Shown: one piece after another, positions 9,097-29,762 of the stretch | Position numbering within the stretch: the stretch's first letter is position 1 | Layout of the letters: each line of letters opens with the position of its first letter | Source: a virus | Direction: 5' to 3' (one strand) | DNA length: 29,762 nucleotides | IMG/VR virus record: IMGVR_UViG_3300018036_000044 | Coordinates: 1 to 29,762 of that record | Position numbers and translations under genes: made by a program | The notes under the pieces: generated by a model | Seen by the model: only the letters and a program-made list of their open reading frames with translations | The model's database searches: none | Told to the model about the DNA's origin: nothing

Positions 9097-9111
9097 TTGA
9101 GGATTATGGGG

Positions 9112-10869: not shown

Positions 10870-12033
10870 ATGTCAGAACTATTTGAGAGTCGCTGGCAGG
10901 ATACCAAAAATGCACTTCTTGAAGGCCTTGAAGGCAACAAGAAAGCTGTAATGGGTGTTACTCTAGAAAATACTAAAAGGTATTTGGCAGAGAATGCGAC
11001 AGCAGGTGCAACTTCTGCAGGTAATGTTGCTACACTAAACAGAGTTATCCTTCCGGTAATTAGACGAGTTATGCCAACTGTTATCGCCAACGAATTAGTT
11101 GGTGTACAGCCCATGACAGGTCCAGTGGGTCAAATCCACACACTAAGAGTACGCTACGCAGATTCATTTGATGATGTAACTGCTGGTGAAGAAGCTCTAT
11201 CACCATTCAAAATTGGTGTTGGCTACAGTGGCGGCGGTTCTACCGACAAAGCTGATGCAACAGCAACACTTGAAGGTGCCGCTGGTAAGAGAATGTCTAT
11301 CCAGATCTTAAAGCAAACAGTAGAAGCAAAAACCAGAAAGCTATCAGCTCGCTGGACTTTTGAATCTGCTCAAGATGCACAAGCCCAACAAGGCATTGAC
11401 ATCGAAGCTGAGATCATGGCAGCTCTTGCACAGGAGATTACAGCTGAAATCGATCAAGAAGTACTTGCTTCTTTACGTTCACTAGCTGGAACTGCTGAAT
11501 CAGACGTACAATACGATCAGTCATCTGTAAGTGGTACTGCCACTTTCGTTGGCGATGAGCATGCGGCACTAGCTGTTATGATCAACCGTGTTGCAAACAA
11601 GATTGCCGCTCGTACACGTCGTGGCGCAGGTAACTATGCAGTGGTTTCACCATATGCATTGACTATCCTACAGTCCGCAACAACTTCTGCGTTCGCAAGA
11701 ACAACTGAAGGTACATTCGAAGCACCAACTAACACTAAGATGGTTGGTACATTGAACGGCGCGATGAAAGTCTACGTTGATGCATACGCATCAGACGCAA
11801 CTGACGTACTAGTTGGATACAAAGGATCAAGCGAATCAGACGCACCAGCGTTCTACGCTCCTTACATTCCTCTAATGTCAAGTGGTGTTGTGTTAGACCC
11901 AGCATCATTCGAGCCTGTCGTATCATTTATGACACGTTACGGATATGTTGAGCTATCAAACGTTGCTTCTTCACTTGGTAATGCCGCTGACTACTTAGGT
12001 AGAATCAGTATTGCCAATGTAAGCTTCAGCTAA
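10870..12033 (+). CDS. 23: Major capsid protein gp23 (compact form)
   Basis: The main shell protein. Conserved gp23 landmarks: VILPVIRRVMPTVIANELVGVQPMTGPVG, QTVEAKTRKLSARWTFESAQD, IDIEAEIMAALAQEITAEIDQEV, and the C-terminal GYVELSN...LGRISIANVSF. The gp21 cleavage site is probably YLAE41/N42, a shorter propeptide than T4's 65 residues. At 387 residues it is well under T4 gp23 (521): only about 50 residues separate the EEALSPF and VEAKTRKL landmarks against about 130 in T4, so the T4 insertion domain is missing. Codons are less AT-biased than neighbours, as fits high expression. AAGGAG precedes the ATG and a strong terminator follows. Confidence 0.95.
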   Translation: MSELFESRWQDTKNALLEGLEGNKKAVMGVTLENTKRYLAENATAGATSAGNVATLNRVILPVIRRVMPTVIANELVGVQPMTGPVGQIHTLRVRYADSFDDVTAGEEALSPFKIGVGYSGGGSTDKADATATLEGAAGKRMSIQILKQTVEAKTRKLSARWTFESAQDAQAQQGIDIEAEIMAALAQEITAEIDQEVLASLRSLAGTAESDVQYDQSSVSGTATFVGDEHAALAVMINRVANKIAARTRRGAGNYAVVSPYALTILQSATTSAFARTTEGTFEAPTNTKMVGTLNGAMKVYVDAYASDATDVLVGYKGSSESDAPAFYAPYIPLMSSGVVLDPASFEPVVSFMTRYGYVELSNVASSLGNAADYLGRISIANVSFS

Positions 12034-13595: not shown

Positions 13596-13943
13596 ATGGC
13601 AATTACAAATAAAAAAATTACTTCTTCAGATACAACGTTGTTAACAGTTCCAGCAGGTAAAAGATATGCTATTACTACTATTATGGTTTGCAATTCACAA
13701 CCTGCAGATACAGGCGGCGGCAATGATGCAACTTTTGATCTACATTTTATTCCAAGCGGCCAAACAAAAGGATATGCAGATCCAAACTCTAATCAAATAT
13801 TAAATGATTTAAAAGTAGCAGGTGCTGATACATTTTCTTTTGATACAGAAAAGATTGTATTGGAAGAAGGAGACAGTATTGTAGCTATGGGACAAGCAGG
13901 TAAAGAATATTTACTTGCTACAGTTAGTTATTTGGAAGTATAA
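13596..13943 (+). CDS. Small beta-sandwich-like virion protein (115 aa), paralogue of 23585-23914
   Basis: A 115-residue protein with TVPAGKRYAITTIMVCN near the front and KIVLEEGDSIVAMG, LATVSYLEV at the end, a pattern typical of small beta-sandwich phage decoration or fibre-cap proteins. The 109-residue protein at 23585 has the same order (VYTVPPATSTTVIGMNLAN; GEKIILDANNVLYVTS; ILSIVEIV). Its TAA overlaps the ATG of the next gene (TAATG), so the two are translationally coupled. Confidence 0.65.
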   Translation: MAITNKKITSSDTTLLTVPAGKRYAITTIMVCNSQPADTGGGNDATFDLHFIPSGQTKGYADPNSNQILNDLKVAGADTFSFDTEKIVLEEGDSIVAMGQAGKEYLLATVSYLEV

Positions 13944-14481: not shown

Positions 14482-17400
14482 ATGGCACAAGTCGCTCGCA
14501 TAGGCGGTCAATTACTACAAGATAACTTATTACGAGAACTTTCGGATCTTAAGTTTGACAATGACCTTTTAGTTGTAAAAAGAGATAATACTCTTGGTAT
14601 TAATACAACTACAACTCCTAGAAACTTAACTATTAACGGTACATTACGTACATCATCAGGTACTAGTGAGCCTGATATTATTTTTGATAATAGTTTAAAA
14701 ATTGGCGACCTTACTCTTGCTACTACCGGTATTAGTACATCAAGCGGAAACATTAATATTAAATCAACACATCCCGAAGGTTATATTGTTACTAACGGTA
14801 TTGGTAGTTATAATTTTGCTGTTAAGGGCGACGGTCTTATAGCATTAGGAACTAATGATAGTGTTGGTTTAAGATCAGAAGTCTATGATGGCCAAACAGT
14901 TGCCTGGAATTATAACGGTAATTATGGTAATTATTGGTACCCTGGACCAAAGATTAGTGCAGATTCTCCTCCTAACGATGGCGATAGACTTTATGACGAC
15001 GCAATAGCAAGAGCACAGGCAGGTACCTGGACTGCTGAAGAATTAGTTGCATTTGACTTTGATGGTGATGGAGATATTCAAGTAGATGATGCTTTAAAAA
15101 TTCTTACAATGAATACACAGTTCATTAACGGAACTGCATTTCCAGCATCAAGAACACTAGCAGATCACCCAAATCCTGAAGCATTTAAAGCATATGTAAA
15201 AAAATATTATCCGCGAAGTGCTCCAAGAGAATTACAAATCCAATCAGGCGGAACTGTTACAGTAACAGGTAATTTACACGCTACTGGTGATATTACATAC
15301 GGTGCAGAACAAATATTCGAAGGATATTCTTTATGGTATACTGTAAATAATCCGAATGCCTACGGAACTGATGCTAATGATCATTTTGGTCAAACAGTAG
15401 CAGTTGCCGGTAACTTTGGTATTATCGGTGCACCAGATGAAGATTCAGCATCGTTTAGTAGTGAAGGTAAAGCGTATATCTATAATATCACTACTGGACA
15501 ATTATTACATACTTTATCAAATCCTGATGCAGGAGCATCAAATACACAATTTGGTGATTCCGTGCATATTAGCGGCAACTATGCAATCGTTGGTGCAAGT
15601 ACATACGGAAATAATGAAGGTAGGGCATACATATTTGATGTAACTACTGGATCGTTATTACATACGTTATCAAATCCAAATAACTACGGAACATCGCAAG
15701 ATGACTATTTTGGACAATCAGTATCTATTAGTGGGACTTTTTGTGCTGTAGGTGCAAGATTTGAAGATGAAGCAACAGGTAATAACTCGGGAATAATTTA
15801 TGTATTTAATAATAGTACTGGTGTATTAGAAGAAACAATTAATAATCCTAACGTATACGGAACAAAAACAAATGACTATTTTGGTACTGTTGTATCTATT
15901 GATGGAAATAATGTTGCGGCAAGTGCATTAGGAGAAGATACTGCTACTGATACAGAAGTTGGCGTTGTTTACATTTTTAATGCATCTACAGGAGCACTAT
16001 CTAGAACTTTACAAAATCCAAATACATTTAGCACAAGTACCGATGATAGATTTGGTGAAGCAATATCTTTAAGTGGAAATAAAATTATTGTTGGTGCACC
16101 TGGTGAAGATGAGCCTAGCAATAGTAATGCAGGTAAGGCATATATTTTTAACGTAACTACGGGAGCATTGCTATTAACATTAACAAACCCTAATGATTTT
16201 GGAACCAGTCAAGATGATCAGTTTGGATCAAGTGTAGATATTTCAGGAACATGGGCAATTGTTGGAACTCCTGGAGAAGATACTGCTAGTTTTAACAGTA
16301 GTGGTATTGCATATGTGTTTAATACAAATACCGGACTAATGGTTTCGAAGGTTACTAATCCTAATCCCGGAACTGATCATAAATTTGCATTTAATGTAGG
16401 AATTAATGACGATGCTCATACAATTATTGGAGCACCTCTTGAAACTGTAGACGGATCAACTGAAGCTGGTCGAGTTTATATACACCAAGCAACAATCAGC
16501 GGTAATGAAAGTTCATTAATCATAGGCGACGATAGTACTGATACTGCATCGTTTTTTGCAGATTTTAAATCTGATATTATTCCAGATCAAACAGATACGT
16601 TTACTATAGGTAATGTAGGTAAGAGATTTAAAATTGCAGTTGAAGAACTAACTGCTGACAGGGTTCAAGCTAACGGTATTGTTTATCAAGGAATTGAATT
16701 AACAAAAAATGTTGGTATTATTTTTGTTTCAACCAACAACGGTAATGATAATAACGAAGGAACAAACCCGGGCGGTCCGTTTGCAACAATTGCAAAGGCA
16801 CTTAGTACTGCAACAACAGGCGATTTAATTTATGTTTATCCAGGTCAATACCAAGAAGCATTTCCCTTAACTGTTCCTAAAGGAGTTACTATCCAAGGAG
16901 CATCTTTAAGAAGTGTAGAAATATCACCTACGTCGGCTACACAAAGTAACGATGCATTTTTAGTTAATAGTGATACTACGATTGAAAATATTACAATTAA
17001 AGATTTTTATTATAACAGTAGTAACGACACTGGATATGCTTTCCGTTTTGCTAATAATTTCTCAACAACTATATTTGAACAAACTCCCGGAAGAAGTCCT
17101 TATATCAGAAATGTAACAGTTATTACAAAAGGTACAACAACAAGTCCGAGCGATCCAAGAGGATTTGCAAGCGGCGATGCAGGTAAAGGTGCATTAGTTG
17201 ACGGAAGTGTTGTCTTACAAAATAGTAGATCTGCTAGTATACTTTTTCATAGTTGTACATTTATTACTCCAGGTGTTGATGCACTAACAGCAACAAACGG
17301 TGTAAGAATAGAATGGCTTAATAGTTTTACATATTTTGCTAATAGAGGACTTTATCTAACACAAGGTACCGGAAGATTACTACCGGATAGTACTATTGAA

Positions 17401-19719
17401 TATGGAGCAGAACTTAGAAGTATTTCAAGTGCATCTGTATACGGAAACAAAGGTATCGAAGCCGATGGCGAAAATTGTTTAGCATATCTAATTAACTATA
17501 ATTTTGCATACATTGGCGCAGGTAAAGATGTTACTAACGATAATACATTTACTCTACAAGAAAATGAAGTTATTGAACTAAACAATGCAAAGGTGTATTA
17601 TTCAAGCCAAGACCAACGAGGCAATTTTAGAGTTGGTGATAATTTCCTTGTTGATTTAGAAAATGAAAGAACTAGTTTTGATATTGAAAGCATTTTTGCT
17701 ACAAATGTAACAGCAATCTTAAGAAACGGTAACGATATAATTACAATTCAACCAAGTCAAATTAATTTAGATAACATTGTTATTGCAGGAAATACAATTG
17801 AAGCTACTAGATCAAATTTAAATATTGACAGCGTTGGAGTAATAAATTTACAAGGTAACGTAACAGCACCTTCTATGAATGTTTCAGGAAACTTAACAGT
17901 TGACGGTGCAATCAATAATATTGGTGATAGTCCTAATGATACTGTTGACTTTAATATGGCCATTACTCAAGATTTTCTTCCAGGAGATTCAGACGGATTA
18001 ACATTAGGAAATGAAACAAAACGTTGGAAAGAATTGTATACTGACTTGTTGGCAACAGACAGTATTAACATTACAACATCTGAAATTAGTACTAATGAAA
18101 CTAATGCTGATTTAAATATTTTAGCAACTGGCACAGGCGCTGTCTTCATTGATAATTTAAAATTTGAAGATAATAAAATTATAGGTAAATTTGATCCTGA
18201 AGGAGAGTTCGTAGTAAATTCATCTACTGATCCAGGATTTCCTAGCATCTTTAATGGATTTGATTCATTAAGATCGTTGCTACCAAAATGGACAACTATA
18301 TTTGGTATACCAGTTCTTGGTACAGCAACAGCATCTTTAGATGCAGTAAAGCATGCCGCTAATATTTTAGCAAGTTATCTTGATAATAACTTTGACGGAG
18401 TTGTAGATAATAATGATCTTTATGCAGAGTTTTCAGATGGATTGTTTGCTATAGTAGTTTATGCAAATGCTGCCGAAGAGTCTAGTTTAAGTACACAATT
18501 AGGAGCATTTAAAGTTAACAGAACATTTAGTGTTTTTGAAGATGAAATGAATAACTTCTTAGGAGACGGCGTCGGAAACCAACGAGATATTGCATCTGAA
18601 AAAATTCTAAAAGACTTATTAATTCCGAAAATATCTAGTTTACATATTCCGTTAAGTATTACACGACCGTCTACAGTTACTAACGCAATGGACGCGGCTC
18701 GAGGAGGCTTTCAAGCTGGCGGACAAGTTGGATATAATTATCCTCCCTTTGCATGGTACACTGATCCAACAGGATTATCATACACAAACTTAGTATATGA
18801 ATATTTGTATTTGTTAACAGCATCAGTAGCAGGAAGTTTAGAATGGCGTTCTGGAACAATTACTAGTTTATGGGATCCGTATAATGATGTATTATTGCAA
18901 TTGCAAGACGTAGCTGGTAGAAATATTATTATTAATAACACTTATGGTTTTCCTATAACAAATAGTCCGTCAATTGATTACTGGACTGAAGTTACAAATG
19001 TATTAGGCGGAACAAAACGAGATGTAGAATTTTCTCCAACAGATTCTTTAAGAATAAATGCTATTAGTGATTTGTCTTTACCAAAAGGATCACCGGCTGA
19101 AAGACCGTCAGTACAAGGCGGAATTAGATATAATACCACTTATAATACATTTGAAGGTACTGAAATTTTAGGTGCAGTTTCTTTAGACGGTATTTATGAT
19201 ACTGATAGAAACACATATTTAGACCTAAGTAATAACCAATTTAACTTTGTTACTAACGGACAAACAAATCACACGTTAAATGGTACACTACTTGAATCAT
19301 CTGGATTTAGTAGTGATCATAAATTTAGTATAGACGGAAATGTTGTTAGTAATGATGTAGAAGGTGGAAATAGTATATTAAGATCAAACGGTACTGGTTT
19401 CACTAAAATACAAGAAGTTCACTTTAGAGATAGTGAGTTAGTTAATGCTAGTGCTGCCAATTTTATCTTTAATTTAACAAATACTAATAACAGAGCTTTT
19501 CTAAAAATTGATAATGTAAGCGGTATGGTTATCCCGCAAGGTACTACAGCAGAACGTCCTGGAATACCTGAAGTTGGACATACAAGATACAACTTAGATC
19601 TAGAATACGTAGAAACTTGGAACGGTTCTGACTGGATTAATGCGGCAGGTGAAGTTGAAAGTATTGAAGCATCTGATGTTGAAAATTTAGCTTATATATT
19701 CAACCTTATCCTAGACTAA
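14482..19719 (+). CDS. Giant tail-fibre protein 1 (FG-GAP propeller, beta-helix; 1745 aa)
   Basis: A multidomain adhesin. In order: N-terminal region MAQVARIGGQLLQDNLLREL shared with the second fibre (MAIGRISGPLLKDNLLR); a dockerin/EF-hand-like loop DFDGDGDIQVDD (about 190-205); seven FG-GAP-like repeats of about 55 residues (284-670), each with NPN..FG...ISG...IVGAP...YIFN..TG; a right-handed beta-helix starting at about 742 (PFATIAKAL..YVYPGQYQEAFPL); SSQDQRGNFRVGDNF (about 1035-1050); a unique region (about 1240-1500) with a second EF-hand loop DNNFDGVVDNND; and two LPKG/IPQG..RPxxP..G.xRYN modules (about 1533 and 1683). The start has GAGAGGG upstream. Likely role: host surface recognition. 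No enzyme motif seen. Confidence 0.8.
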   Translation: MAQVARIGGQLLQDNLLRELSDLKFDNDLLVVKRDNTLGINTTTTPRNLTINGTLRTSSGTSEPDIIFDNSLKIGDLTLATTGISTSSGNINIKSTHPEGYIVTNGIGSYNFAVKGDGLIALGTNDSVGLRSEVYDGQTVAWNYNGNYGNYWYPGPKISADSPPNDGDRLYDDAIARAQAGTWTAEELVAFDFDGDGDIQVDDALKILTMNTQFINGTAFPASRTLADHPNPEAFKAYVKKYYPRSAPRELQIQSGGTVTVTGNLHATGDITYGAEQIFEGYSLWYTVNNPNAYGTDANDHFGQTVAVAGNFGIIGAPDEDSASFSSEGKAYIYNITTGQLLHTLSNPDAGASNTQFGDSVHISGNYAIVGASTYGNNEGRAYIFDVTTGSLLHTLSNPNNYGTSQDDYFGQSVSISGTFCAVGARFEDEATGNNSGIIYVFNNSTGVLEETINNPNVYGTKTNDYFGTVVSIDGNNVAASALGEDTATDTEVGVVYIFNASTGALSRTLQNPNTFSTSTDDRFGEAISLSGNKIIVGAPGEDEPSNSNAGKAYIFNVTTGALLLTLTNPNDFGTSQDDQFGSSVDISGTWAIVGTPGEDTASFNSSGIAYVFNTNTGLMVSKVTNPNPGTDHKFAFNVGINDDAHTIIGAPLETVDGSTEAGRVYIHQATISGNESSLIIGDDSTDTASFFADFKSDIIPDQTDTFTIGNVGKRFKIAVEELTADRVQANGIVYQGIELTKNVGIIFVSTNNGNDNNEGTNPGGPFATIAKALSTATTGDLIYVYPGQYQEAFPLTVPKGVTIQGASLRSVEISPTSATQSNDAFLVNSDTTIENITIKDFYYNSSNDTGYAFRFANNFSTTIFEQTPGRSPYIRNVTVITKGTTTSPSDPRGFASGDAGKGALVDGSVVLQNSRSASILFHSCTFITPGVDALTATNGVRIEWLNSFTYFANRGLYLTQGTGRLLPDSTIEYGAELRSISSASVYGNKGIEADGENCLAYLINYNFAYIGAGKDVTNDNTFTLQENEVIELNNAKVYYSSQDQRGNFRVGDNFLVDLENERTSFDIESIFATNVTAILRNGNDIITIQPSQINLDNIVIAGNTIEATRSNLNIDSVGVINLQGNVTAPSMNVSGNLTVDGAINNIGDSPNDTVDFNMAITQDFLPGDSDGLTLGNETKRWKELYTDLLATDSINITTSEISTNETNADLNILATGTGAVFIDNLKFEDNKIIGKFDPEGEFVVNSSTDPGFPSIFNGFDSLRSLLPKWTTIFGIPVLGTATASLDAVKHAANILASYLDNNFDGVVDNNDLYAEFSDGLFAIVVYANAAEESSLSTQLGAFKVNRTFSVFEDEMNNFLGDGVGNQRDIASEKILKDLLIPKISSLHIPLSITRPSTVTNAMDAARGGFQAGGQVGYNYPPFAWYTDPTGLSYTNLVYEYLYLLTASVAGSLEWRSGTITSLWDPYNDVLLQLQDVAGRNIIINNTYGFPITNSPSIDYWTEVTNVLGGTKRDVEFSPTDSLRINAISDLSLPKGSPAERPSVQGGIRYNTTYNTFEGTEILGAVSLDGIYDTDRNTYLDLSNNQFNFVTNGQTNHTLNGTLLESSGFSSDHKFSIDGNVVSNDVEGGNSILRSNGTGFTKIQEVHFRDSELVNASAANFIFNLTNTNNRAFLKIDNVSGMVIPQGTTAERPGIPEVGHTRYNLDLEYVETWNGSDWINAAGEVESIEASDVENLAYIFNLILD
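15337..16497 (+). repeat. Seven FG-GAP-like repeats in the fibre gene
   Basis: Seven imperfect repeats of about 50-58 codons, each opening with NP (SNPNNYGTSQDDYFGQ, QNPNTFSTSTDDRFGE, TNPNDFGTSQDDQFGS) and closing with a YIFN..TG strand. Seven copies is the usual blade number of an integrin-alpha-type beta-propeller. The fourth blade keeps VSIDGNNVAASALGED but has lost the IVGAP form; the last is the most divergent. Confidence 0.8.
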
Positions 19720-19856
19720 TTTCCCAAATCAGATAAATAATATTAATGCAACGAAGGGCAGACCAGGCCGTTGCTGACAAACTGTGGTTAGCCGGCAAAG
19801 AGCGAAAGCTGAAAATTTAGGCTAGAGGGACAGGATCCCCGTATTAAGGAGAGAAG
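19720..19856 (+). promoter_or_regulatory. Late promoter followed by a structured 5' leader
   Basis: GATAAATA at 19732-19739 should start a leader of about 110 bases. This leader is much richer in G and C than its surroundings and can fold into GCAACG/CGTTGC (19748-19753/19769-19774), TAGCC/GGCTA (19789-19793/19820-19824) enclosing AGC-GAAA-GCT (19801-19810, a GNRA loop), and GGGA/TCCC (19827-19830/19836-19839). AAGGAGAG, the ribosome site, follows at 19846-19853. It matches no riboswitch or ribozyme I know; it could be a regulatory leader, a small RNA source or a stability element. Confidence 0.6.
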
Positions 19857-22800
19857 ATGGCAATTGGTCGCATATCGGGTCCTCTCTTAAAGGATAACTT
19901 ACTCCGCAATGGAGCGAATTTAGCCTTCGAGACAGACCTTTTATACTTAGATGTAACAAACCGTCGGATCGGTGTAAAAACTACAAATCCTCAATACGCA
20001 TTAGACGTTGCAGGCATTGCCCGTGTAACAGATCTAGAAATTACAAATAACGTTTTTAATATTGGTAATGTTACAATTAATGGTGACACTGCTACTATTT
20101 CAACTTCTGCACAAGAATTTGCAATCGCAACAGCTGATAATACTATTGTAGGCAATAGAGTAGTAGTCGGCGACTTAGAAATTAATAATAACTTTTTAGA
20201 AAACACAAATACTAACAGTGATTTGTTTATTCGTGCAAACGGTACCGGAACCGTAAACATTGTAGGTAATACTGTAATTACTGGTAATTTACATGCTACA
20301 GGCAATATTAGTGCCGACGGCAACATTGTTATCGGCGACGACGACACTGATAACATTTATATTAACGCAGACATTGCAAGTAACATTTTACCTGATATTG
20401 ACGATACTTATAATATTGGATCAGCGAGTAAGCGTTGGGCAACTGGATTTTTTGGTAACGTTACAACAAATACATTAACAACAAATGATTTGGATTTTGG
20501 TAACATTGACCTAATTAGTATTCCAGGAAATATCATTTATGTTGCTACTAACGGCGGTGATAATCAAACAGGCACACACCCACAAGATCCTGTACTAACT
20601 ATTACAAAGGCATTAGAACTTGCTAGTTTAGGTGATACTGTTTACATTTATCCAGGACAATATCAAGAAGCATTTCCATTAACAGTACCGTTAGGAGTTA
20701 CAGTAAAAGGACATAGTATACGTTCAGTAGAAATTACTCCAACAAGTGGAACACAAAGTAATGATGCTTTTTTATTAAACGGTGACACAACAGTTGAAGA
20801 CATAACTGTTAAAGATTTTTATTACAATAGTGGTGCAAATACAGGATACGCTTTCCGTTTTGCAAATAATTTTAGAACATATGAAAGATCACCATACGTA
20901 AAAAACGTTAGTGTAATCACAAAAGGAACTACAACATCTAATGATGATCCAAGAGGATTTGCAAGTGGTGATGCAGGCCGAGGCGCATTAGTCGACGGCA
21001 GTATTGCTAATGCAGATTCTAAAGAAGCGTCGATATTATTCCATAGTGTAACATTTATTACACCTGGTGTTGGTGGTTTAAAAATTACTAACGGCGGTAG
21101 AGTCGAATGGTTAAGTTCATTCACATACTTTGCAGATAAAGGAATTGAAATTGTTGACGGCGTAGCAGGTCTAAAAGGCGACGGCAAAACAAAAATTAAA
21201 TATTCCGGATTTAGCGGATCAGCAGTAGCACCTGGTCAAACTATTACACTTAAAGATGCAAACGGTACAACACTTGCATCATCAACAATTGAAAGTGTAG
21301 ACACTGATACTGTAATAATTGATGGTAAGCCAAGCGGCTATATTCTACCATTAAGTAGAGCTAAGAAAACAGTTACAGCAGTTGGAAACGCACAAGCAGT
21401 AACATCTGCTCCTGTAAAATACGGAACAGGCATTGGTTTATTTGATGGTACAGATGATAGATTTACAATTACTACACAGTCTGACTTTGGTTTTGGCACT
21501 GGAGATTTTAGTGTAGAAGGATGGATTTATATTAGCGACGATCTTGGTACTGAATCAATTTTTGATTTTAGAGCAGGATCAGCAACTGATGATGCATTAC
21601 ATTTTTATACAGTTGACAGAGCACCTAAAGTTGACATTGGCAACACTACTTTAATTGCACCGGCTATTACATTAATCAACACTACGTTTTATCATATTAT
21701 GGTAACACGAGTTGGTACAACTTTAAGATTATTTGTTGACGGACTATTACAAGGTTCTGCAACTGTTAGTACAAATTTAGGAACAACAAAACCATTAATA
21801 ATTGGTAACGCATATGATGGATTAACTGGACATGCTGGACGTATTGACGACTTCCGTATAAGAAAAGGCATAGGAGAAAATGCAAACTTTCCAGCGCCAA
21901 CAGCGGCAACTGTAGTTGATCAATATACAGTATTAAAGTTAAACTTTGATAGTAATAACGGATCACAAATTATTACAGACGACGACACTTTCATTCAAAC
22001 TATTGAATTTAGTGGCGGTGGCACAGCAACAGCATTAACATTAATTGATCAAAGCGATTTTGGTGGCGAACTAAGATCTATTTCTAGTGCATGTATTTAC
22101 GGCAACTATGGAATATATGGTGATGGTCCAGGTAGTATAGTATATGCCATTGGTCAAAATTTAGCATATATAGGATCAGGTAAAGAAGTTACTAATGATC
22201 CAACAGAAGTTATACAGGATAACGAAGTAGTTGCACTTAATGATGCAAAAATTTACTTTAGTACAGTTGATCACAAAGGTGATTTTAGAGTTGGTGACTT
22301 ATTTAGAATTAATCAACAAACTGGCGAAGTATCATTTACTAATGCAGAATTCTTATTTAACAACAACCAAGGTATTACTTTCACTGACGGCGTTAACACA
22401 ACTATTATTGATGGTACAAAAATTGAAACTGGTAATATAAGAATTACAGGAAACACTATTTACAGTACTAGTGGTGATGTTAATATTAATACTACAACTG
22501 GTGAAATTAATTTAATTGATAATGTTAATATTACTGGTAACTTAGATGTTGCAGGAAATATTACTATTGGTGGAAATATTACACTTGGCGACGAAAATAC
22601 TGATGTAATTAATATTAATGCACAAATTGACAGTGATATTATTCCGGCAGCCGATGTTACTTATAAATTAGGTAATAACGGTCTTGCATGGTCAGAAGCA
22701 CACGTTGGAAAAGCAATTATTGACGATATTACAATTGACAACGATACAATTAGTTCTACTGGTAGTAATGGTAATATTAATATTATTCCTAATGGAGCGG

Positions 22801-23399
22801 GTAGTGTTATAATTGACCAACTTCAATTAAACGGTAATGCTATATCAAATTTAAGTGGTGATATTATTTTAGATCCAAGTAGTGAATCAGTAAAAATTAC
22901 TAGCACTGGAGCACTGGTACTACCAAAAGGTACTACAGCAGAACGTCCATTATCTCCTGTAACAGGTATGATTCGTTATAATACTGACGCAAATGTATTT
23001 GAAGCATACGACGGAGGCTGGATTAACTTAGGCGGCGTTTACTCAGATGATAGACAGACATATATTACTGCTGAATTAACACCGGGCGCAAACGACGATA
23101 CTATACGTTTTTATGCTAACGGAAGTATAGTAGCAGATGTAACTACTGAACGCTTTGATGTACAACGATTAGAAGTAGATGATATTGCAATTTCTGGAAA
23201 TATTTTAGAAACAATTACTACAAATGCTGATCTAAATTTAAGAGCAAACGGAACTGGATTAGTAACCATAGAGAACTTTAGTTTCAACGGAAATCAGATA
23301 ACTAATACTATAGATGGTGCTGTTACTACACTTAAACAAAACGGTTCGGGATATTTTAAAGTTGAAGGCACAGGCGGATTTTGTTATTCCAGTTGGTAA
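19857..23399 (+). CDS. Giant tail-fibre protein 2 (beta-helix with LamG-type lectin insert), frameshifted near 3' end
   Basis: Paralogue of fibre 1 with the same N-terminus (MAIGRISGPLLKDNLLRNG). Repeated ITGNLHATGNISADGN-type beta strands lead into the right-handed beta-helix (about 225-440: VYIYPGQYQEAFPLTVPLG, YAFRFANNF). A LamG/concanavalin-like domain (about 519-680: FDGTDDRFTI, FSVEGWIYI, LRLFVDGLLQGSA, GRIDDFRIRKG) is inserted in the helix; then SSACIYGNYGIYGDG, STVDHKGDFRVGDLFRI, and LPKGTTAERPLSPVTGMIRY (about 1022). The frame ends early as GGFCYSSW at 23399, but the next frame continues with IPVGNNANRHPTPETG: one extra T in a TTTT run (23379-23382) separates them. The intended product is about 1238 residues. 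AAGGAGAG precedes the ATG. Confidence 0.78.
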   Translation: MAIGRISGPLLKDNLLRNGANLAFETDLLYLDVTNRRIGVKTTNPQYALDVAGIARVTDLEITNNVFNIGNVTINGDTATISTSAQEFAIATADNTIVGNRVVVGDLEINNNFLENTNTNSDLFIRANGTGTVNIVGNTVITGNLHATGNISADGNIVIGDDDTDNIYINADIASNILPDIDDTYNIGSASKRWATGFFGNVTTNTLTTNDLDFGNIDLISIPGNIIYVATNGGDNQTGTHPQDPVLTITKALELASLGDTVYIYPGQYQEAFPLTVPLGVTVKGHSIRSVEITPTSGTQSNDAFLLNGDTTVEDITVKDFYYNSGANTGYAFRFANNFRTYERSPYVKNVSVITKGTTTSNDDPRGFASGDAGRGALVDGSIANADSKEASILFHSVTFITPGVGGLKITNGGRVEWLSSFTYFADKGIEIVDGVAGLKGDGKTKIKYSGFSGSAVAPGQTITLKDANGTTLASSTIESVDTDTVIIDGKPSGYILPLSRAKKTVTAVGNAQAVTSAPVKYGTGIGLFDGTDDRFTITTQSDFGFGTGDFSVEGWIYISDDLGTESIFDFRAGSATDDALHFYTVDRAPKVDIGNTTLIAPAITLINTTFYHIMVTRVGTTLRLFVDGLLQGSATVSTNLGTTKPLIIGNAYDGLTGHAGRIDDFRIRKGIGENANFPAPTAATVVDQYTVLKLNFDSNNGSQIITDDDTFIQTIEFSGGGTATALTLIDQSDFGGELRSISSACIYGNYGIYGDGPGSIVYAIGQNLAYIGSGKEVTNDPTEVIQDNEVVALNDAKIYFSTVDHKGDFRVGDLFRINQQTGEVSFTNAEFLFNNNQGITFTDGVNTTIIDGTKIETGNIRITGNTIYSTSGDVNINTTTGEINLIDNVNITGNLDVAGNITIGGNITLGDENTDVININAQIDSDIIPAADVTYKLGNNGLAWSEAHVGKAIIDDITIDNDTISSTGSNGNINIIPNGAGSVIIDQLQLNGNAISNLSGDIILDPSSESVKITSTGALVLPKGTTAERPLSPVTGMIRYNTDANVFEAYDGGWINLGGVYSDDRQTYITAELTPGANDDTIRFYANGSIVADVTTERFDVQRLEVDDIAISGNILETITTNADLNLRANGTGLVTIENFSFNGNQITNTIDGAVTTLKQNGSGYFKVEGTGGFCYSSW

Positions 23400-23574
23400 T
23401 AACGCTAATAGACACCCAACACCAGAAACAGGTATGATGAGGTACAACAGTGTTGAAGACAGAGTTGAAATTTATGATATTTCAAATAACTGGGTGTCAG
23501 TAGCAGGTGCAACAGGTGCTGTTACATTTAATGATGCAGAGGAGATTGCAATTAAACTTGCATTGACAATATAG
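23314..23574 (+). CDS. Out-of-frame C-terminal piece of fibre 2
   Basis: An open frame whose useful part starts at about 23383 and encodes VIPVGNNANRHPTPETGMMR, YNSVEDRVEIYD and WVSVAGATGAVTFNDAEEIA, the same final module that ends fibre 1 (VIPQGTTAERPGIPEVGHTR...WINAAGEVESIEASDVENLA). The first residues, before the junction, overlap fibre 2 in another frame and look meaningless, and the ATG at 23314 has no ribosome site, so it is not an independent gene. It is joined to 19857 by a +1 shift at the TTTT run. Whether this is a sequencing error, a mutation or programmed frameshifting cannot be told here. Confidence 0.75.
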   Translation: MVLLLHLNKTVRDILKLKAQADFVIPVGNNANRHPTPETGMMRYNSVEDRVEIYDISNNWVSVAGATGAVTFNDAEEIAIKLALTI

Positions 23575-23584
23575 GAAAAGAATA

Positions 23585-23914
23585 ATGGCAACTAATTTTA
23601 AAAACGTAATTGGAAAAGATATAGGTACACAGCGAGTCGCAGTATATACAGTTCCGCCCGCTACAAGTACAACAGTAATTGGTATGAACCTAGCTAATCT
23701 TACAGAGAGTATGGTAAACTGTACAATTGAAATTGGAGACGAAGCAAGTTCAATTGGAGTAATGGTTAAAAACATGCCTATTCCTCCAGGATCTAGTTTA
23801 AAACCAATTGGAAAAGGTGAAAAAATTATTCTTGATGCTAATAATGTATTATATGTAACATCAGATTCAACAGCATCAATTGATGTAATTTTAAGTATAG
23901 TGGAGATTGTATAA
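23585..23914 (+). CDS. Small beta-sandwich-like virion protein (109 aa)
   Basis: Paralogue in shape of the 115-residue protein at 13596: YTVPPATSTTVIGMNLANL in front, GEKIILDANNVLYVTS and ILSIVEIV at the end. It follows fibre 2 by ten bases with AGGAAAAG. Its TAA overlaps the next ATG (TAATG), as in the first cassette. Probably a decoration or fibre-associated protein. Confidence 0.65.
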   Translation: MATNFKNVIGKDIGTQRVAVYTVPPATSTTVIGMNLANLTESMVNCTIEIGDEASSIGVMVKNMPIPPGSSLKPIGKGEKIILDANNVLYVTSDSTASIDVILSIVEIV

Positions 23915-24276
23915 TGAGTGACGGAAACTTTATGGGCCAAAGCATTGGCGAAATGGTAAATCAAACAGATGCAAGATATTTTTATGGTCTTCGCAGAACA
24001 GATGACGGTGAATTATATGTTGTAAAAATTGATCAACTTAAAAGCAACGATAGTGTTCAAATAAACGCAGAAGGTGATCCGACTCATAATTATGAAGACT
24101 TTGTACAAGGCGAAGATTTCTTTGAAGGAAGAAATGTTAACCATGAAAGACTTTATGCTAATCTAAATTATGAGCAATTTAGATGGGATAATAGAAACAT
24201 TAATTACTACATTGACGAAAGTGGTAATCTTGTAGCTAGAATTAACGAAGGTTATGAATACCCAACTGGAGTATAA
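23914..24276 (+). CDS. Conserved marine T4-like virion protein (120 aa)
   Basis: A 120-residue protein, MSDGNFMGQSIGEMVNQTDARYFYGLRRTDDGELY, with QGEDFFEGRNVNHERLYANL and YEQFRWDNRNINYYIDESG. I recall close relatives of this pattern in marine cyanophages, unnamed but always near the large fibre genes; they are taken to be structural. There are no cysteines and the composition is acidic. It overlaps the previous stop by one base. A late octamer overlaps its stop codon. Confidence 0.7.
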   Translation: MSDGNFMGQSIGEMVNQTDARYFYGLRRTDDGELYVVKIDQLKSNDSVQINAEGDPTHNYEDFVQGEDFFEGRNVNHERLYANLNYEQFRWDNRNINYYIDESGNLVARINEGYEYPTGV

Positions 24277-24282
24277 TAAATA
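24275..24282 (+). promoter_or_regulatory. Late promoter AATAAATA
   Basis: AATAAATA begins within the stop of the previous gene and lies 17 bases before the ATG of the third giant gene, leaving a short leader with GGTAGAGA. Confidence 0.65.
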
Positions 24283-24299
24283 CGTAAAAGGTAGAGAAA

Positions 24300-27200
24300 A
24301 TGGCAGAATTTAAACTTAGTAGAATTAGATTTAACTGGAAGGGTGAATGGACCGGAGGGGTTGATTACATTGCTGACGATATGATTTCATATAAAGGTGC
24401 AACATATGTTGCATTGAGAACTCATACATCTGCAACGTTTTATAACGACTTAGCAGGTACAGACCTTACACCAGCAAAACCAAAATGGAAAAAACAGTCC
24501 GAAGGTAAAGTTTGGACTGGAGATTGGGCTGTTAGCACAATCTATGCTATTGGTAATATTGTAAAATACGGTGCTAGTATTTACGAATGTACAGAAGAAC
24601 ATACATCTGCCGCTACGTTTATTTCGGGTACAGACGGTCTAGTTGCTGATATTGGTAAATGGAAATTAGTTGCTGTTTCATCAGCTGATTGGAAATATAA
24701 CTGGACGCCAAATACACTTTATAGAACAAACGATCTTGTACGTTATAATGGTAAAGTTTATAAGGCAGTTAATCAGCACGTTTCTGCGGCAACATCAACA
24801 TTGGGATTGGAAGCAAATCAATTAGATTGGGCAATCCTAGCAGATAGTGATACCTGGAGAGCAAATTGGTCAATTGGTACACGCTATCGTGTTAACGATA
24901 TTGTTAAGTACGGTGGTATTGTTTACAAGTGTATCGTTGGACATACTTCAGCAGATAATGCTGTATTTGGTCTTGAAGAAGATCAATCAAAATGGGAAAT
25001 TGCAATCGACGGAATTGAATATGTTACAGCAACAGTTACAGATGATGACGATGTTGAAACTATTACAGGATTGTGGCAACAAGATTATAGATATAAAAAG
25101 AATGATATTGTAAGACGAGGCGGAAATTTGATGAGATGTCTAGTTGGACATACATCAGGTGAAGGATCAAACGCATTTAATATTGATTATGGTTCTTCGT
25201 ATTGGGCTACATTTTTACCTGGTTCAGAATACGAAAAGGTATGGGCACAAAACGTTTACTATCAACCTGGTGATACTGTACTATATGGTGGTTACATTTA
25301 TAAAGCAGTATCATTTAATACAGATTCAATACCGAGTTTAAGTCCGTTAGACTGGAACTTAACTTTTGAAGGTTATAAATTTAGATACGATTGGAACAAT
25401 CCAGGTGCCGTTGACGATAGTGCATTAGTTGATTATAAAACAGGTGATGTTGTAAGATTGTCGGGAAGTCTTTACATTGCTATCCAAGACAATACAAATT
25501 TACAACCTGATTTATATCCTACACATTGGGAAAAGATTTACGAAGGCAGACAGTTTAGAGACACTTGGGAAGATGATACAGAATATTTTCAAGGCGATAT
25601 TGTTACATGGCAAGGTACATCATACATTGCGTTAGGATACCATCGATCAACTGAGTCAGCTTCTAGACCCGATTTAGATATTAATCAACCAGATCAAAAT
25701 TATTGGAAAATAATGATTCTTGGAACACAAACTAATAAGTTAGCTAGAAGAGGCGACTTAAAAACATTTGAAGACCAAGATTCAACAGCAATTGATACAC
25801 AGAGATTAGCAATTGGAACAACTGGTCAAGCATTAAGATCTACAAATGGATTGCCTGCATGGGATAGTTTAGATTTACAAGAAAAATTATATTATGTTTC
25901 TCGTAACGGAGTTGATGATCGTCAACAAGGCGGAACACTCAACGCTCCTTTTAGAACTGTTAGATTTGCAATGAATTGGTTGCTTGAAGACGAAACAAAC
26001 AGAGTAGGCGATGGCGCCACAGTAAAAGTAATGGCTGGCGAATTTGCAGAAGTTCTACCTATTAGTATTCCATCTAAAGTTGCACTAGTTGGTTCAGAAT
26101 TAAGAACAACAACAATTAGAGCAGCCACACCTCAGGATGTTGTGTTAGATGAGAAATTAGCAGACGGAACACAAGAACAATTAACTATTCCTGACAGTAA
26201 TATTAGAAACAACATGTTTTATGTTAGAAACGGTTGCGGAATTAGAACTCTTACATTAAAAGGATTAGAAGGAGTTATAATTGGTCCAAACGATTTTGGA
26301 ACAAGTCGTCCGACTGCTGGCGCATATGTATCGCTAGATCCGGGCACAGGTCCAGATGATTCGAGTGTGTGGGTAACAAATAAATCAACCTACATACAAG
26401 GTGTTACTGCTATTGGAACAGGATGTGTCGGATTAAAAGTTGATGGTTCATTACATAATGGCGGAAACAAATCAATTGTTGCTAACGACTTTACGCAAGT
26501 ACTAAGTGATGGCATCGGATATTGGGCAACTAATCTAGGTCGTTCAGAACTAGTTAGTGTGTTTACATATTATGCACATATTGGATATTTGTCAGAAAAT
26601 GGCGGAATTTTACGTGCAACTAATGGTAACAATTCATACGGTACATTTGGTAGTGTTGCTGAAGGATTTGATAATAATGAAACACCACAGACTGTTTCTG
26701 TAAATAACCAAAACGGTGAAGCAAGTGTCGATGAAGTATTCACAAACGGATCAAACATTTTAGCACTAGCTTATAAAAACACTGGACAATCATATACAGG
26801 TGCAGTAGCAAGTACAACACAGGCAACCGGTACTGACCTTAATATGAAATATGACGAAATTAGAGTTAGTGCAGTGTCTAGAATTGATTTAGCTATTCCA
26901 GATGATAGTACAACTGTTGGTGGCGCTGGATTTAAAACTTTTACTAATAACTCTCAAGGTGGAGATTTAAGTAGTATTACTTTAGCGGCATCAGAAGTTA
27001 GAACAGCGGCACAGCTAGTAGGAATGAGAATTTTATTAACTGACGGTCCAGGTGCAGGTCAATATGGATATATTGACGGTTACAACCCAGATACAAAAGT
27101 AGCAACAGTGTTTAAAGAAAGTACTGGAACTCCAGGATGGGATAATATTGTTCCTGGAAAAATTAATGTAACCTCGTTTACTGCAACTACAAAATATGAA

Positions 27201-29228
27201 TATGAACCAAGAGTAACTATTAGTTCTCCTACATTTAATAAAACTAACAATAGTATACAAACAGGCGGACACGATATCGGTTACAGTGAAGAATTAGGTT
27301 TATGGTATTATGCTCCAACAGGTGGCGATGATTGGTATGTTTCATCAGATGCATCAGTTTGGACTCAAAGGTCGATTCCAGCATATAATTTAAGTTATAC
27401 TTCTTTTTCAAAATCAGGGCCTTTACTATTAGGCTTAGCAGATGCATCAGATAAATTAGTATTTTCAAATGATGGAATTAACTTTGATCATTCGACACTA
27501 CCTTCTGCAACAACTTGGAAAAAAGTAGCAGTCGGCGGTCCAGATAATGATACAATTATTTGTATTGCTACAGGTGACGGTAATGCATATGTAAATTCTA
27601 TTGTACAAGATGCAGGATCAACTACTGTTCCTGGCGCAGGATGGTCTACCAACGTAACTGGCGCAAGTAATACTACTTGGGTAGGTTTAGCATATGGAGC
27701 AGGTAAATGGATTGCACTAGCACAAGATGGTTCAACTGTAATATCAACAGATAACGGTGCAAACTGGACAACAGGTGCAGCCGTATCAACAGACGGTATT
27801 GAACTATATAGCGGTTTAGTATATGGTAACAATTGTTGGGTTGCAACTATGGACAATTCGGATAGAGTTATTCATAGTGATACTGGAACTGTTTGGAATG
27901 ATGCACAAATTGTTGGCGACTCAGGAAGAGAAGATTGGACTGTAGGATACTCAAATGGTGTATTTTTAGCATTAAGCGATACAGGTACAACTGCTAGTTC
28001 TGAAGATGCTCAAAATTGGACTATTAGAACTGCAAACGGTGCAATGACAAGTGTCGCAGGCGGCGTAAGAAATAGTTTGCCTACATTCGTTGCTATTAGT
28101 GAAACAATAGGAACAGGAAACGTTTACACAGGCGGTAGAACAGCATTTGCTCGTGCAGAAGTTGCAAACGGAAAATTAAGCCTAATTAAAATTTACGATC
28201 CAGGTTCAGGCTATGTAACTGCACCAACAGTAACAATTGAAGATCCTGAAGAATATAGTGAACCATATTTTACTGTTGATATTAACGACGGAGTACTTCC
28301 ACAACCTGCATTCTACAATAGAGGAACAGGATATCAAAGTGCTATTGTTACAATTACAGGTGACGGTTTTGGTGAAGAATTACAAATCGGTAACACAATG
28401 ATTGTTAGTGGTGTAGGCGTAACTCCTGGACCAGGAGCAAACGTAAGATTTGCAGGTAATCCAATAGTTTATAGACTAGTAAAAGTAACATCAGAATCTG
28501 GTGTTGCTCCTAACAAACAAATTACGTTCCAAATTAGTCCAGTATTATCTAGATCAACAGCACCAGTACATAATACTGTAGCAACCATTCGTGAAAGATA
28601 TTCACAAGTACGTCTAACAGGACACGATTTCTTAGACATCGGTACAGGTAACTTTGCAGATACTAATTATCCTTCGCTTTACGTGCAAGGACAAACAGCC
28701 GCAAATGACACAGTACAATCAAACGAAGTTGTTGAGTCAAACGGTGGACGAGTATTTTATACTAGTAGTGACCAAGATGGTAACTATAGAGTTGGTGAAT
28801 TGTTTAGAGTTTCACAGGCACAGGGCGGCGTTACACTAAATGCTGACTTCTTTGACTTAGAAGGTTTAGATGAACTAAGACTAGGCGGAATTAGAGTTGG
28901 TGGAACACAGGCTGTAATTAGAGAATTTAGTACAGATAATACGTTTGTTGCGAACTCGGATAATATTATTCCAACACAACGAGCATTAACATCGTATATC
29001 GAAAATAGATTTAACGGTGGTGGATCTAACTTGTTTACTAACACACTTGTAGCAGGTCAGTTAAAGTTTGAAGATAGAACATGGTCCAACACAGCAGGAT
29101 CAAATAATCCAGAAGCTATGGCAACAGTAGCGCCACAAATGATTATTAACGGTCCATTAGGCGGCGGGTTGCAAGCCTTAACGATGTTTCTAGGAGCTCG
29201 AATTGATCGAGACGACTTTAACGGATAA
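24300..29228 (+). CDS. Giant tail-fibre/baseplate protein 3 (CBM5/12-like repeats, beta-helix, Asp-box propeller; 1642 aa)
   Basis: Domains in order: MAEFKLSRIRFNWKGEW start; eight repeats of about 55-65 residues resembling chitin-binding CBM5/12 modules (about 8-480), each of the form W...Y..ND.V.Y.G..Y......T..........W; a beta-helix (from about 530: YYVSRNGVDDRQQGGTLNAPF, FAEVLPISIPSKVALVGSEL); an Asp-box propeller (about 985-1275: SSDASVW, SNDGINF, STDNGANW, HSDTGTVW, SSEDAQNW); GSGYVTAPTVTIEDP repeats; and the conserved end RYSQVRLTGHDFLDIGTGNF, SSDQDGNYRVGELF, GGTQAVIREFSTDN, NIIPTQRALTSYIENRF. I recall this C-terminus as a signature of large marine T4-like structural proteins. Role: host glycan recognition; the propeller could also be a sialidase-like fold, but the catalytic residues are not evident. 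Confidence 0.8.
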   Translation: MAEFKLSRIRFNWKGEWTGGVDYIADDMISYKGATYVALRTHTSATFYNDLAGTDLTPAKPKWKKQSEGKVWTGDWAVSTIYAIGNIVKYGASIYECTEEHTSAATFISGTDGLVADIGKWKLVAVSSADWKYNWTPNTLYRTNDLVRYNGKVYKAVNQHVSAATSTLGLEANQLDWAILADSDTWRANWSIGTRYRVNDIVKYGGIVYKCIVGHTSADNAVFGLEEDQSKWEIAIDGIEYVTATVTDDDDVETITGLWQQDYRYKKNDIVRRGGNLMRCLVGHTSGEGSNAFNIDYGSSYWATFLPGSEYEKVWAQNVYYQPGDTVLYGGYIYKAVSFNTDSIPSLSPLDWNLTFEGYKFRYDWNNPGAVDDSALVDYKTGDVVRLSGSLYIAIQDNTNLQPDLYPTHWEKIYEGRQFRDTWEDDTEYFQGDIVTWQGTSYIALGYHRSTESASRPDLDINQPDQNYWKIMILGTQTNKLARRGDLKTFEDQDSTAIDTQRLAIGTTGQALRSTNGLPAWDSLDLQEKLYYVSRNGVDDRQQGGTLNAPFRTVRFAMNWLLEDETNRVGDGATVKVMAGEFAEVLPISIPSKVALVGSELRTTTIRAATPQDVVLDEKLADGTQEQLTIPDSNIRNNMFYVRNGCGIRTLTLKGLEGVIIGPNDFGTSRPTAGAYVSLDPGTGPDDSSVWVTNKSTYIQGVTAIGTGCVGLKVDGSLHNGGNKSIVANDFTQVLSDGIGYWATNLGRSELVSVFTYYAHIGYLSENGGILRATNGNNSYGTFGSVAEGFDNNETPQTVSVNNQNGEASVDEVFTNGSNILALAYKNTGQSYTGAVASTTQATGTDLNMKYDEIRVSAVSRIDLAIPDDSTTVGGAGFKTFTNNSQGGDLSSITLAASEVRTAAQLVGMRILLTDGPGAGQYGYIDGYNPDTKVATVFKESTGTPGWDNIVPGKINVTSFTATTKYEYEPRVTISSPTFNKTNNSIQTGGHDIGYSEELGLWYYAPTGGDDWYVSSDASVWTQRSIPAYNLSYTSFSKSGPLLLGLADASDKLVFSNDGINFDHSTLPSATTWKKVAVGGPDNDTIICIATGDGNAYVNSIVQDAGSTTVPGAGWSTNVTGASNTTWVGLAYGAGKWIALAQDGSTVISTDNGANWTTGAAVSTDGIELYSGLVYGNNCWVATMDNSDRVIHSDTGTVWNDAQIVGDSGREDWTVGYSNGVFLALSDTGTTASSEDAQNWTIRTANGAMTSVAGGVRNSLPTFVAISETIGTGNVYTGGRTAFARAEVANGKLSLIKIYDPGSGYVTAPTVTIEDPEEYSEPYFTVDINDGVLPQPAFYNRGTGYQSAIVTITGDGFGEELQIGNTMIVSGVGVTPGPGANVRFAGNPIVYRLVKVTSESGVAPNKQITFQISPVLSRSTAPVHNTVATIRERYSQVRLTGHDFLDIGTGNFADTNYPSLYVQGQTAANDTVQSNEVVESNGGRVFYTSSDQDGNYRVGELFRVSQAQGGVTLNADFFDLEGLDELRLGGIRVGGTQAVIREFSTDNTFVANSDNIIPTQRALTSYIENRFNGGGSNLFTNTLVAGQLKFEDRTWSNTAGSNNPEAMATVAPQMIINGPLGGGLQALTMFLGARIDRDDFNG

Positions 29229-29229
29229 T

Positions 29230-29237
29230 GATAAATA
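29230..29237 (+). promoter_or_regulatory. Late promoter GATAAATA
   Basis: GATAAATA two bases after the previous stop and 27 bases before the next ATG, with CGGAG between. Confidence 0.65.
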
Positions 29238-29264
29238 TGTATAATACCAAGAACGGAGCAAACA

Positions 29265-29762
29265 ATGGCAGAATTTAAACTCGGTAGAATTAGATTTATA
29301 TGGAAAGATGCATGGGTAACTGGCACTACATATCTAAAAGACGATGTTATTAGATATGGTGGTAGAACCTATGTAGCAGTACAAGGTCATACTGCAAGTG
29401 CTAATTTCTACAATGACGAAGATCACTGGAATAAGTTTAGTGACGGTACTGACTGGAAGTCAGACTGGACAACAACTACATTCTACAAAATTAACGATAT
29501 CGTAAGATATGGTGGTATTATTTACATTTGTAATACCGGTCATACAGCACAAGCTGTACTTGAAGATGATCAATCAAAATGGGATCAGTTTGCTACCTCA
29601 ATTGACTGGAAAGACAATTGGACAGCTTCTACAGTTTACAAAGCAAACGACTTGGTAAAATATGGTGGAAACATTTATTTGTGTAACACTGGTCACACTG
29701 CCGCGGCCACAAATGCTTTAGGACTAGAAGCTGACATTTTAAAATGGGATATTTTCTCAGAA
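29265..29762 (+). CDS. CBM5/12-like fibre protein, 5' part (cut by window end)
   Basis: Begins MAEFKLGRIRFIWKDAW, almost the same as the third giant gene, and stays open to the edge (166 codons seen). At least three W...Y..ND.V.YGG..Y.C..GHT modules are present (DDVIRYGGRTYVAVQGHT, NDIVRYGGIIYICNTGHT, NDLVKYGGNIYLCNTGHT). It is a tandem paralogue of 24300-29228, so the fibre array goes on past this window. Ribosome site GGAG, eight bases before the ATG. Confidence 0.85.
   Translation, partial: MAEFKLGRIRFIWKDAWVTGTTYLKDDVIRYGGRTYVAVQGHTASANFYNDEDHWNKFSDGTDWKSDWTTTTFYKINDIVRYGGIIYICNTGHTAQAVLEDDQSKWDQFATSIDWKDNWTASTVYKANDLVKYGGNIYLCNTGHTAAATNALGLEADILKWDIFSE

Follow-up and report, generated by a model that had tools for sequence, protein, structure and literature searches.

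Four paralogous putative fibre genes of a T4-like phage carry different domains at fixed sockets of a common beta-helix

The window, i.e. the whole stretch of DNA that was analysed, is a virus record of 29,762 bases and probably contains a cluster of adsorption fibres from a marine T4-like phage, in which the paralogues A and B, followed by C and D, use a beta-helix as a chassis with domains at fixed sockets. The genes are paralogues, and they differ from each other and from their relatives by the presence or absence of whole blocks at these sockets. The locus would encode four paralogous fibres or tailspikes for adsorption, and the homologous beta-helix of each would be a rigid chassis. Folded domains would be inserted blockwise at a small number of set places, namely loops of the helix, an internal adaptor and shaft-unit junctions before and after the helix. 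Insertion at such sockets would preserve the register of the remaining protein while the displayed surfaces differ. The LamG, propeller, FG-GAP and CBM families are often glycan or protein binders. The modules presumably bind glycans of the host surface, the term glycan-binding being taken from family and fold only, and the proteins A to D would be trimeric fibres of the virion.

T4-like head genes are located upstream of the fibres (portal at 5499, protease at 9097, major capsid protein at 10870). The best 25 phage records for the major capsid protein belong to large phages (Phosso, Vibrio 2.275.O, CBB and PA5oct, for example), with 67-71% identity, and the contig of one relative has 261,806 bases. 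The source is a T4-like marine phage of bacteria, probably a jumbo phage. As relatives we used 78 metagenomic viral contigs. Several of these are near-identical and many are truncated; their counts are not counts of independent events. Downstream of the capsid gene the order is A, B, two small genes, C and D, and it was kept in the relatives inspected (L072, L070, L087, L061 and L064). The small genes encode proteins of 109 aa (23585-23914, plus strand; phrog_26609 and phrog_1276) and 120 aa (23914-24276, plus strand; phrog_8997) at conserved positions. With the helix of B as a query the A/B scaffold was confined to the fibre cluster in 7 records of searchable size, with 3-4 matches each; the weak matches were C- or D-like genes. 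As a sign of a cyanophage host psbA was looked for and found in 0/7 large, partial relatives. Small proteins of ~110 aa with a 'TVPA'-like segment lie beside fibre pairs at 13596-13943 and 23585-23914 of the window and at L070:19852-20178; the two of the window match phrog_1276 weakly and are possibly fibre-associated.

The open reading frames were found where a sequence-only reading had placed them, all on the plus strand: A at 14482-19719 (1745 aa), B at 19857-23399 (1180 aa), C at 24300-29228 (1642 aa) and D from 29265 to the end of the window. The same reading had called A, B and C giant fibre paralogues on a common scaffold, and pairwise and profile comparisons yielded similarities far above chance, in line with the Pfam and PHROG matches of A and C. 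A676-974 matched B154-449 with 57% identity (E 3e-94) and A973-1249 matched B734-1017 with 39% (E 1e-45). The N-termini of A and B are alike as claimed (A4-88 vs B3-85, 37%, E 8e-7), and A746-996 matched C530-789 with 26% (E 1e-8). D indeed starts like C (C1-182 vs D1-166, 46%, E 9e-47), and where D genes are complete they align with C. The scaffold profiles of A and C matched at 99.85% with an E of 1e-30 when the inserted block of C was removed, and at 98.8% with an E of 6e-17 when it was retained. Besides the beta-helix, A and B have the N-terminus and later segments in common; C and D have the CBM_5_12 repeats. In addition, A and B each contain two copies of a shaft unit, GD..TD...P...LG...[RW]; in A the FG-GAP socket is just ahead of one copy and the A1169 socket within the other.

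A segment 'DQxGNFRVGDLF' had been read in A, B and C. The literal form occurs in none of them, but a related segment D[QH]xG[ND][FY]RVG is present in all three and ends the helix scaffold in each: DQRGNFRVGDNF in A (A1044-1055), DHKGDFRVGDLF in B (B805-816) and DQDGNYRVGELF in C (C1491-1502, 28770-28805, plus strand, by motif pattern).

The right-handed beta-helix claimed for A, B and C was recovered with Z 16-21 in a model of B, and extends to A by the 57% identity to B and to C by profile comparison; C's own model is weak over the helix, with moderate to low confidence. A model of B205-865, predicted from an alignment of 41 rows, had a mean pLDDT of 88.3 and a pTM of 0.71. The structural alignments covered the top chains of Foldseek. 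Beta-helix chains aligned within residues 20-622 of the model, a range that gives the first and last aligned residues only: 5olq with Z 21.0, 255 aligned residues and 3.2 A, and the K2-2 tailspike 8iqe with Z 18.0, 249 aligned residues and 5.2 A. Of the phage beta-helix tailspikes and fibres, 8iqe, 7lzj, 7xy1 and 9rkv have the same scaffold fold and were matched through the helix. Could the proteins be enzymatic tailspikes? The helix itself would then cleave polysaccharide as a lyase or hydrolase, and accessory binding modules, the inserts, would hold it on its substrate. The nearest solved folds of the B model include a rhamnogalacturonan lyase, pectin methylesterases and phage depolymerase tailspikes, and the scaffold profile matched 5olq, a xylosidase and two phage tail spike or fibre chains. 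Yet these profile matches were short, about 46-60 residues with E 2e-4 to 1e-3, and a common fold is no proof of enzymatic activity. We regard an enzymatic function as possible, though somewhat unlikely.

In B the helix is predicted to run from B212-438 (20490-21170) to B735-840 (22059-22376, including DHKGDFRVGDLF), both on the plus strand. Between the two parts lies B439-733 (approximate edges; 21171-22055, plus strand), which consists of an adaptor of ~85 aa and a LamG jelly roll (Pfam 530-668). The LamG lectin that had been claimed was identified by Laminin_G_3 (E 7e-16, 59.1 bits vs a cut-off of 27.6), and the predicted models of B and C displayed the jelly-roll and propeller folds, respectively. 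The insert of B, residues 295-507 of the model, aligned with LamG/pentraxin-type jelly rolls, best illustrated by 8a7d with Z 18.8 over residues 319-504. Because helix chains align both before and after the insert, LamG is predicted to be placed within the helix rather than appended to it. That LamG in B and the propeller block in C interrupt the helix itself had escaped the earlier reading. In the A/B alignment the adaptor insert was seen in 21/21 slot-B rows, 20 of them with the jelly roll, and in 0/20 slot-A rows; the column is the same, A971/972. Slot B of L063, an 1838-aa protein that we moved there from slot A, has kept the adaptor of ~85 residues while the jelly roll is missing, and L064 has the same layout. 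Thus the lectin appears to sit in the adaptor and the adaptor in the helix. The frame of B is disrupted in the window near codon 1176 (window 23314-23574, 23399), while the near-identical L002, L003, L022 and L023 encode 1238 aa; the cause may be a sequencing error or a real break.

The cyanophage protein of P-HM1 and ACG-2014f, annotated as 'gp7 baseplate wedge initiator' (phrog_13163), has the same scaffold as B on either side of the LamG insert. The phrog_13163 profile matched B212-908 in one stretch, tblastn yielded 41% over B218-890, and BFVD contributed M4QDB5. If the annotation were correct, the genes would encode gp7-like baseplate wedge proteins decorated by lectin domains. The label 'baseplate wedge subunit' of phrog_13163 (E 2e-182 for B, 3e-101 for A and 1e-14 for C, there over C1469-1591 only) and the 'gp7' of P-HM1 speak for this, as the A/B scaffold is so labelled in PHROGs and GenBank. 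On the other hand, the available part of PMC7029224 reports that T4 gp7 is absent in cyano- and pelagimyophages and apparently replaced by VrlC. Furthermore, the 'gp7' of P-HM1 is a 7.3-kb gene adjoining genes annotated as VrlC, tail fibre and tail-fibre assembly. The scaffold profile listed 4 sequences among PDB chains at E<=0.01 and no gp7 was among them, which is indecisive by itself. We consider a baseplate wedge improbable and the 'baseplate' label doubtful, and favor adsorption fibres. In contrast to the P-HM1 gene, the window co-encodes four paralogues with additional sockets. In PHROGs 13163, 32294, 1469 and 19601 the term 'baseplate wedge subunit' on a fibre scaffold looks like propagated annotation.

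Gene C starts with CBM_5_12 repeats (C1-480, 24300-25739). CBM5/12-like repeats had been claimed, and Pfam predicts them in 7 stretches of C (155.2 bits) and 3 of D (84.8 bits; cut-off 26.2). The cut gene D (29265-29762) was assigned by these repeats and its similarity to C. The C/D alignment and profiles placed part of the beta-helix at C520-800 (25857-26699), with the sockets C571, C630 and C694 all empty in the window. It is followed by an inserted block, C801-1450 (26700-28649), which according to alignment and model comprises a flank, a seven-bladed propeller (C977-1306, 27228-28217) and a second flank; all these segments are on the plus strand. C977-1278 (residues 473-774 of the model) aligned with 2z2o, a seven-bladed propeller, with Z 27.9 over 277 residues and 2.8 A, and the Foldseek ranks 2-11 of the propeller were Ycf48. 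Of the Asp-box propeller claimed for C the propeller fold stood, and for the Asp boxes two matches to the strict pattern were found. The model of C, with a mean pLDDT of 75.0, is good near the propeller, while the end and parts of the helix are poorly modelled, and a profile search of PDB with the C alignment yielded no match. The block inserted in C begins past the residue equivalent to A999, 28 residues beyond the LamG socket at A971/972 and thus about one coil further on.

Complete ORFs were clustered at 95%, and the cluster representatives were used for the alignments. For C and D, 36/41 clusters were aligned with the window (26 C-set rows including the window and 11 D-set rows); those omitted were L002, which is the window's own, and L037, L039, L045 and L047, which all four carry propeller and repeat module. 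Blocks of 97-330 aa were found at C571, C630, C694, C977-1306 and C1466; past C520 the protein otherwise varied little in length. Inserts were 119-167 aa at C571, 123-131 aa at C630, 213-216 aa at C694 and, in L035, 318 aa at C694 and 97 aa at C1466. The C694 socket was filled in 15/25 C-set rows other than the window, in 14 by the 213-216-aa module and in L035 by the larger one. The propeller was present in 25/26 aligned C-set rows including the window and missing in 11/11 D rows; the one C-set row without it is an additional C-like paralogue (1446 aa) encoded by L087. Complete D proteins of relatives (11 clusters) have 1611-1618 aa. Related repeat modules occupy three sockets: C694, C1466 (in L035) and C571 (in D of L061). 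Modules related to the C694 repeat were also detected in 288 phage records with the names Synechococcus, Cyanophage, Prochlorococcus or Marine, at 698 places altogether. Tail fibres of phrog_9851 (S-CAM1, P-SSM2 and the Pelagibacter phage Mosig) are like C and D in that the CBM_5_12 N-terminus is joined to the C/D scaffold; yet a single place covering 80% of C was found in 0/57 matching phage records.

In A the putative FG-GAP propeller forms an insert of 401 aa with seven repeats (A276-676, 15307-16509, plus strand), flanked by ...HATGDITYG and SLIIGDDSTDT. The FG-GAP repeats claimed for A were predicted by FG-GAP_2 (E 8e-51, 170.4 bits vs a cut-off of 23); six stretches pass alone and seven are suggested by the repeat pattern. 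The beta-helix of A, its fold assigned by homology to B, covers A735-1060 (16684-17661, plus strand) and ends with DQRGNFRVGDNF; the LamG socket is empty. Two features were absent from the earlier reading. One is domain X (A1267-1510, 18280-19011, plus strand), related to a secreted bacterial lipoprotein: the sole cellular hit was a putative lipoprotein of a gammaproteobacterial MAG with 32%, and no match was found in isolated phages, PDB or Pfam. The relation to the lipoprotein was noted for domain X together with L098:2872-3684. The other is a dockerin-like or EF-hand-like stretch (A141-255, 14902-15246, plus strand), recognized by eye from its motif and by a profile of its own; it is conserved in slot-A relatives and matched nothing in Pfam. 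Its profile missed the EF-hand-like insert of the 1446-aa protein of L087, and we do not claim a link between the two. The slot-A alignment contained 19/24 clusters besides the window; L002 (the window's own), L055 and the two parts into which the L004 gene is split were omitted. The FG-GAP block was missing from the 18 aligned slot-A relatives and present only in the clade of the window. A block of 275 residues that holds X was missing in L010, L011, L014 and L021. The A1169 socket (17988-17989, plus strand) is empty in the window and filled by a module of 102-106 aa in four relatives, with +106 residues in L009, +102 in L021 and the same module in L110 and L120; L016 has a fragment. In L004:1551-6787 slot A is broken into ORFs of 773 and 950 aa, between FG-GAP block and helix.

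Among the 78 contigs slot B contained LamG in 58; in the alignments it was seen to be missing from a single lineage, that of L063/L064. Because slots B, C and D were scored by LamG, propeller and helical module, the tally cannot show the absence of these modules; that of LamG and propeller was read from the alignments instead. A dockerin-type A gene was found in 39 contigs, 6 with FG-GAP and 33 without. L004 is left out of the six due to its split gene, though the FG-GAP block is present. Slot A was complete in 35 contigs, and X was found in 28 and not found in 7 of these. Propeller-bearing C genes in 49 contigs had no scored insert (16), the repeat module (28) or the helical module (5). D-type genes were present in 44 contigs, and A, B, C and D together in 21/78, many of the others being fragments.

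The sequence-only reading had raised the possibility that modules swap while the beta-helix stays. Such variation was seen for the FG-GAP and X blocks, for the ~106-aa module and the repeat at C694, and for the propeller, which C has and D lacks; LamG and the propeller of the C set turned out to be fixed. LamG, propeller and CBM block showed no recent exchange, as no aligned pair was more alike there than in its best scaffold segment. The ~106-aa module behaved differently. In L009 and L120 its DNA was identical in 296/318 positions (93%), while the flanks agreed in 214/300 upstream and 190/279 downstream (68-71%); the proteins were 94% alike in the module and 69% and 54% in the flanks. The DNA-identity pattern fits transfer between lineages, and because DNA divergence is low between diverged flanks we favor recent transfer over selection on the protein. 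L110 and L120 are identical over 600 bases upstream and then diverge, with 93.1% in the module and 82.9% after it. The scaffold of L110 is nearest to L037-type phages (80-97% by segment). These nearest relatives of L110 and L120 are without the module, and so is L005, the sister of L009 on the B tree (36 rows, the module states of many lost at contig ends). Occurrence of the module in L009, L021, L110 and L120 makes chimaeric assembly of the metagenomic contigs less likely. In 3/6 pairs the module was not above its flanks, including L021 with L110 and L120 (63-64% vs 69% upstream), so that the case for transfer rests on L009 with L110 and L120. Judged from these alignments the module looks transferred between phage lineages, and exchange may proceed by homologous recombination via the conserved flanks of the sockets.

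Such transfer bears on the view that the architecture is old and has since changed by differential loss only, plug-in traffic having ended. In its favor LamG, propeller and CBM diverge along with the scaffold, and FG-GAP and X losses, where scored, occur in one clade each. The identity pattern of L009 and L120 contradicts loss as the only process unless the contigs are chimaeric, and related repeat modules at several sockets and in many phage records also argue against it. We consider loss alone quite unlikely. FG-GAP in one clade, and X-less genes of the tree in one clade, may each reflect a single event. The C694 repeat was below its more similar flank in 91/91 pairs; for 11 of them the similarity was 46-89% in the repeat, compared with 61-92% in the flank upstream and 88-98% in the one downstream. 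Since a node of the tree is unresolved, non-monophyly of the repeat-positive rows cannot be claimed. Modest excesses were seen elsewhere in slot A, where the best pair reached 67% in the dockerin-like stretch (flanks 53 and 55) and 81% in domain X (75 and 70); as the helix itself, taken as a control, reached 63 vs 51 and 54, no exchange is claimed for either.

Lectin-like fibre modules are typical targets of diversity-generating retroelements. A reverse transcriptase (PF00078) was not found in 7/7 large relatives, all partial genomes, and the variation observed is insertion of blocks, which makes a retroelement extremely improbable. Under the preferred reading of a socketed fibre cluster two time scales may be distinguished. 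B's LamG and C's propeller would be old, fixed specialisations; FG-GAP, X block, ~106-aa module and repeat module would be younger or more changeable plugs. The conserved gene order together with the co-occurrence of all four genes leads us to favor joint use over a silent store. Speculatively, and with considerable doubt, the four fibres might form a combinatorial glycan-reading array, in which the long-lived LamG and propeller set the host group and short-lived plugs (FG-GAP, X block, ~106-aa module and repeat), traded between phage lineages by recombination at conserved flanks of the sockets, tune the strain range.

Modularity of tail fibres is usually described as exchange of host-facing parts behind a shared N-terminus. 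Modular fibres, shuffled receptor-binding proteins (PMC10684548) and variable host-recognition islands (PMC7029224) are well known, as far as the available parts of these sources go. The former describes mosaic receptor-binding proteins with a conserved part and exchanged host-facing domains, and recent shuffling in tail fibres; its tail-fibre and neck-passage examples vary behind a shared N-terminus, in contrast to the internal fixed sockets of co-encoded paralogues in the window. The latter describes a host recognition cluster of pelagimyophages, which are marine and T4-like, i.e. a variable tail-fibre island with concanavalin-type domains between VrlC and gp14, whereas the cluster of the window follows the major capsid gene. 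What seems new is that homologous beta-helices carry a lectin and a propeller at sites separated by about one coil, with more sockets around and one plug apparently moving. A fixed multi-socket arrangement was not met in the literature surveyed, mostly titles and beginnings of abstracts, and may still be published. Natural variation marks sites in and around a phage beta-helix that accept domains of 100-400 aa with the remainder unchanged, including a LamG adaptor that also occurs empty, and the sockets thus indicate insert-tolerant places of a beta-helix fibre. The variation in modules is a natural experiment on which modules determine host range.

Some distance after the fibre cluster, L072:26531-27158 and L087:23505-25202 contain ORFs that by eye are carbamoyltransferase-like. 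At 512-1321 on the minus strand of the window an ORF has an H-x-D pattern that, by eye only, resembles 2OG-Fe(II) oxygenases.
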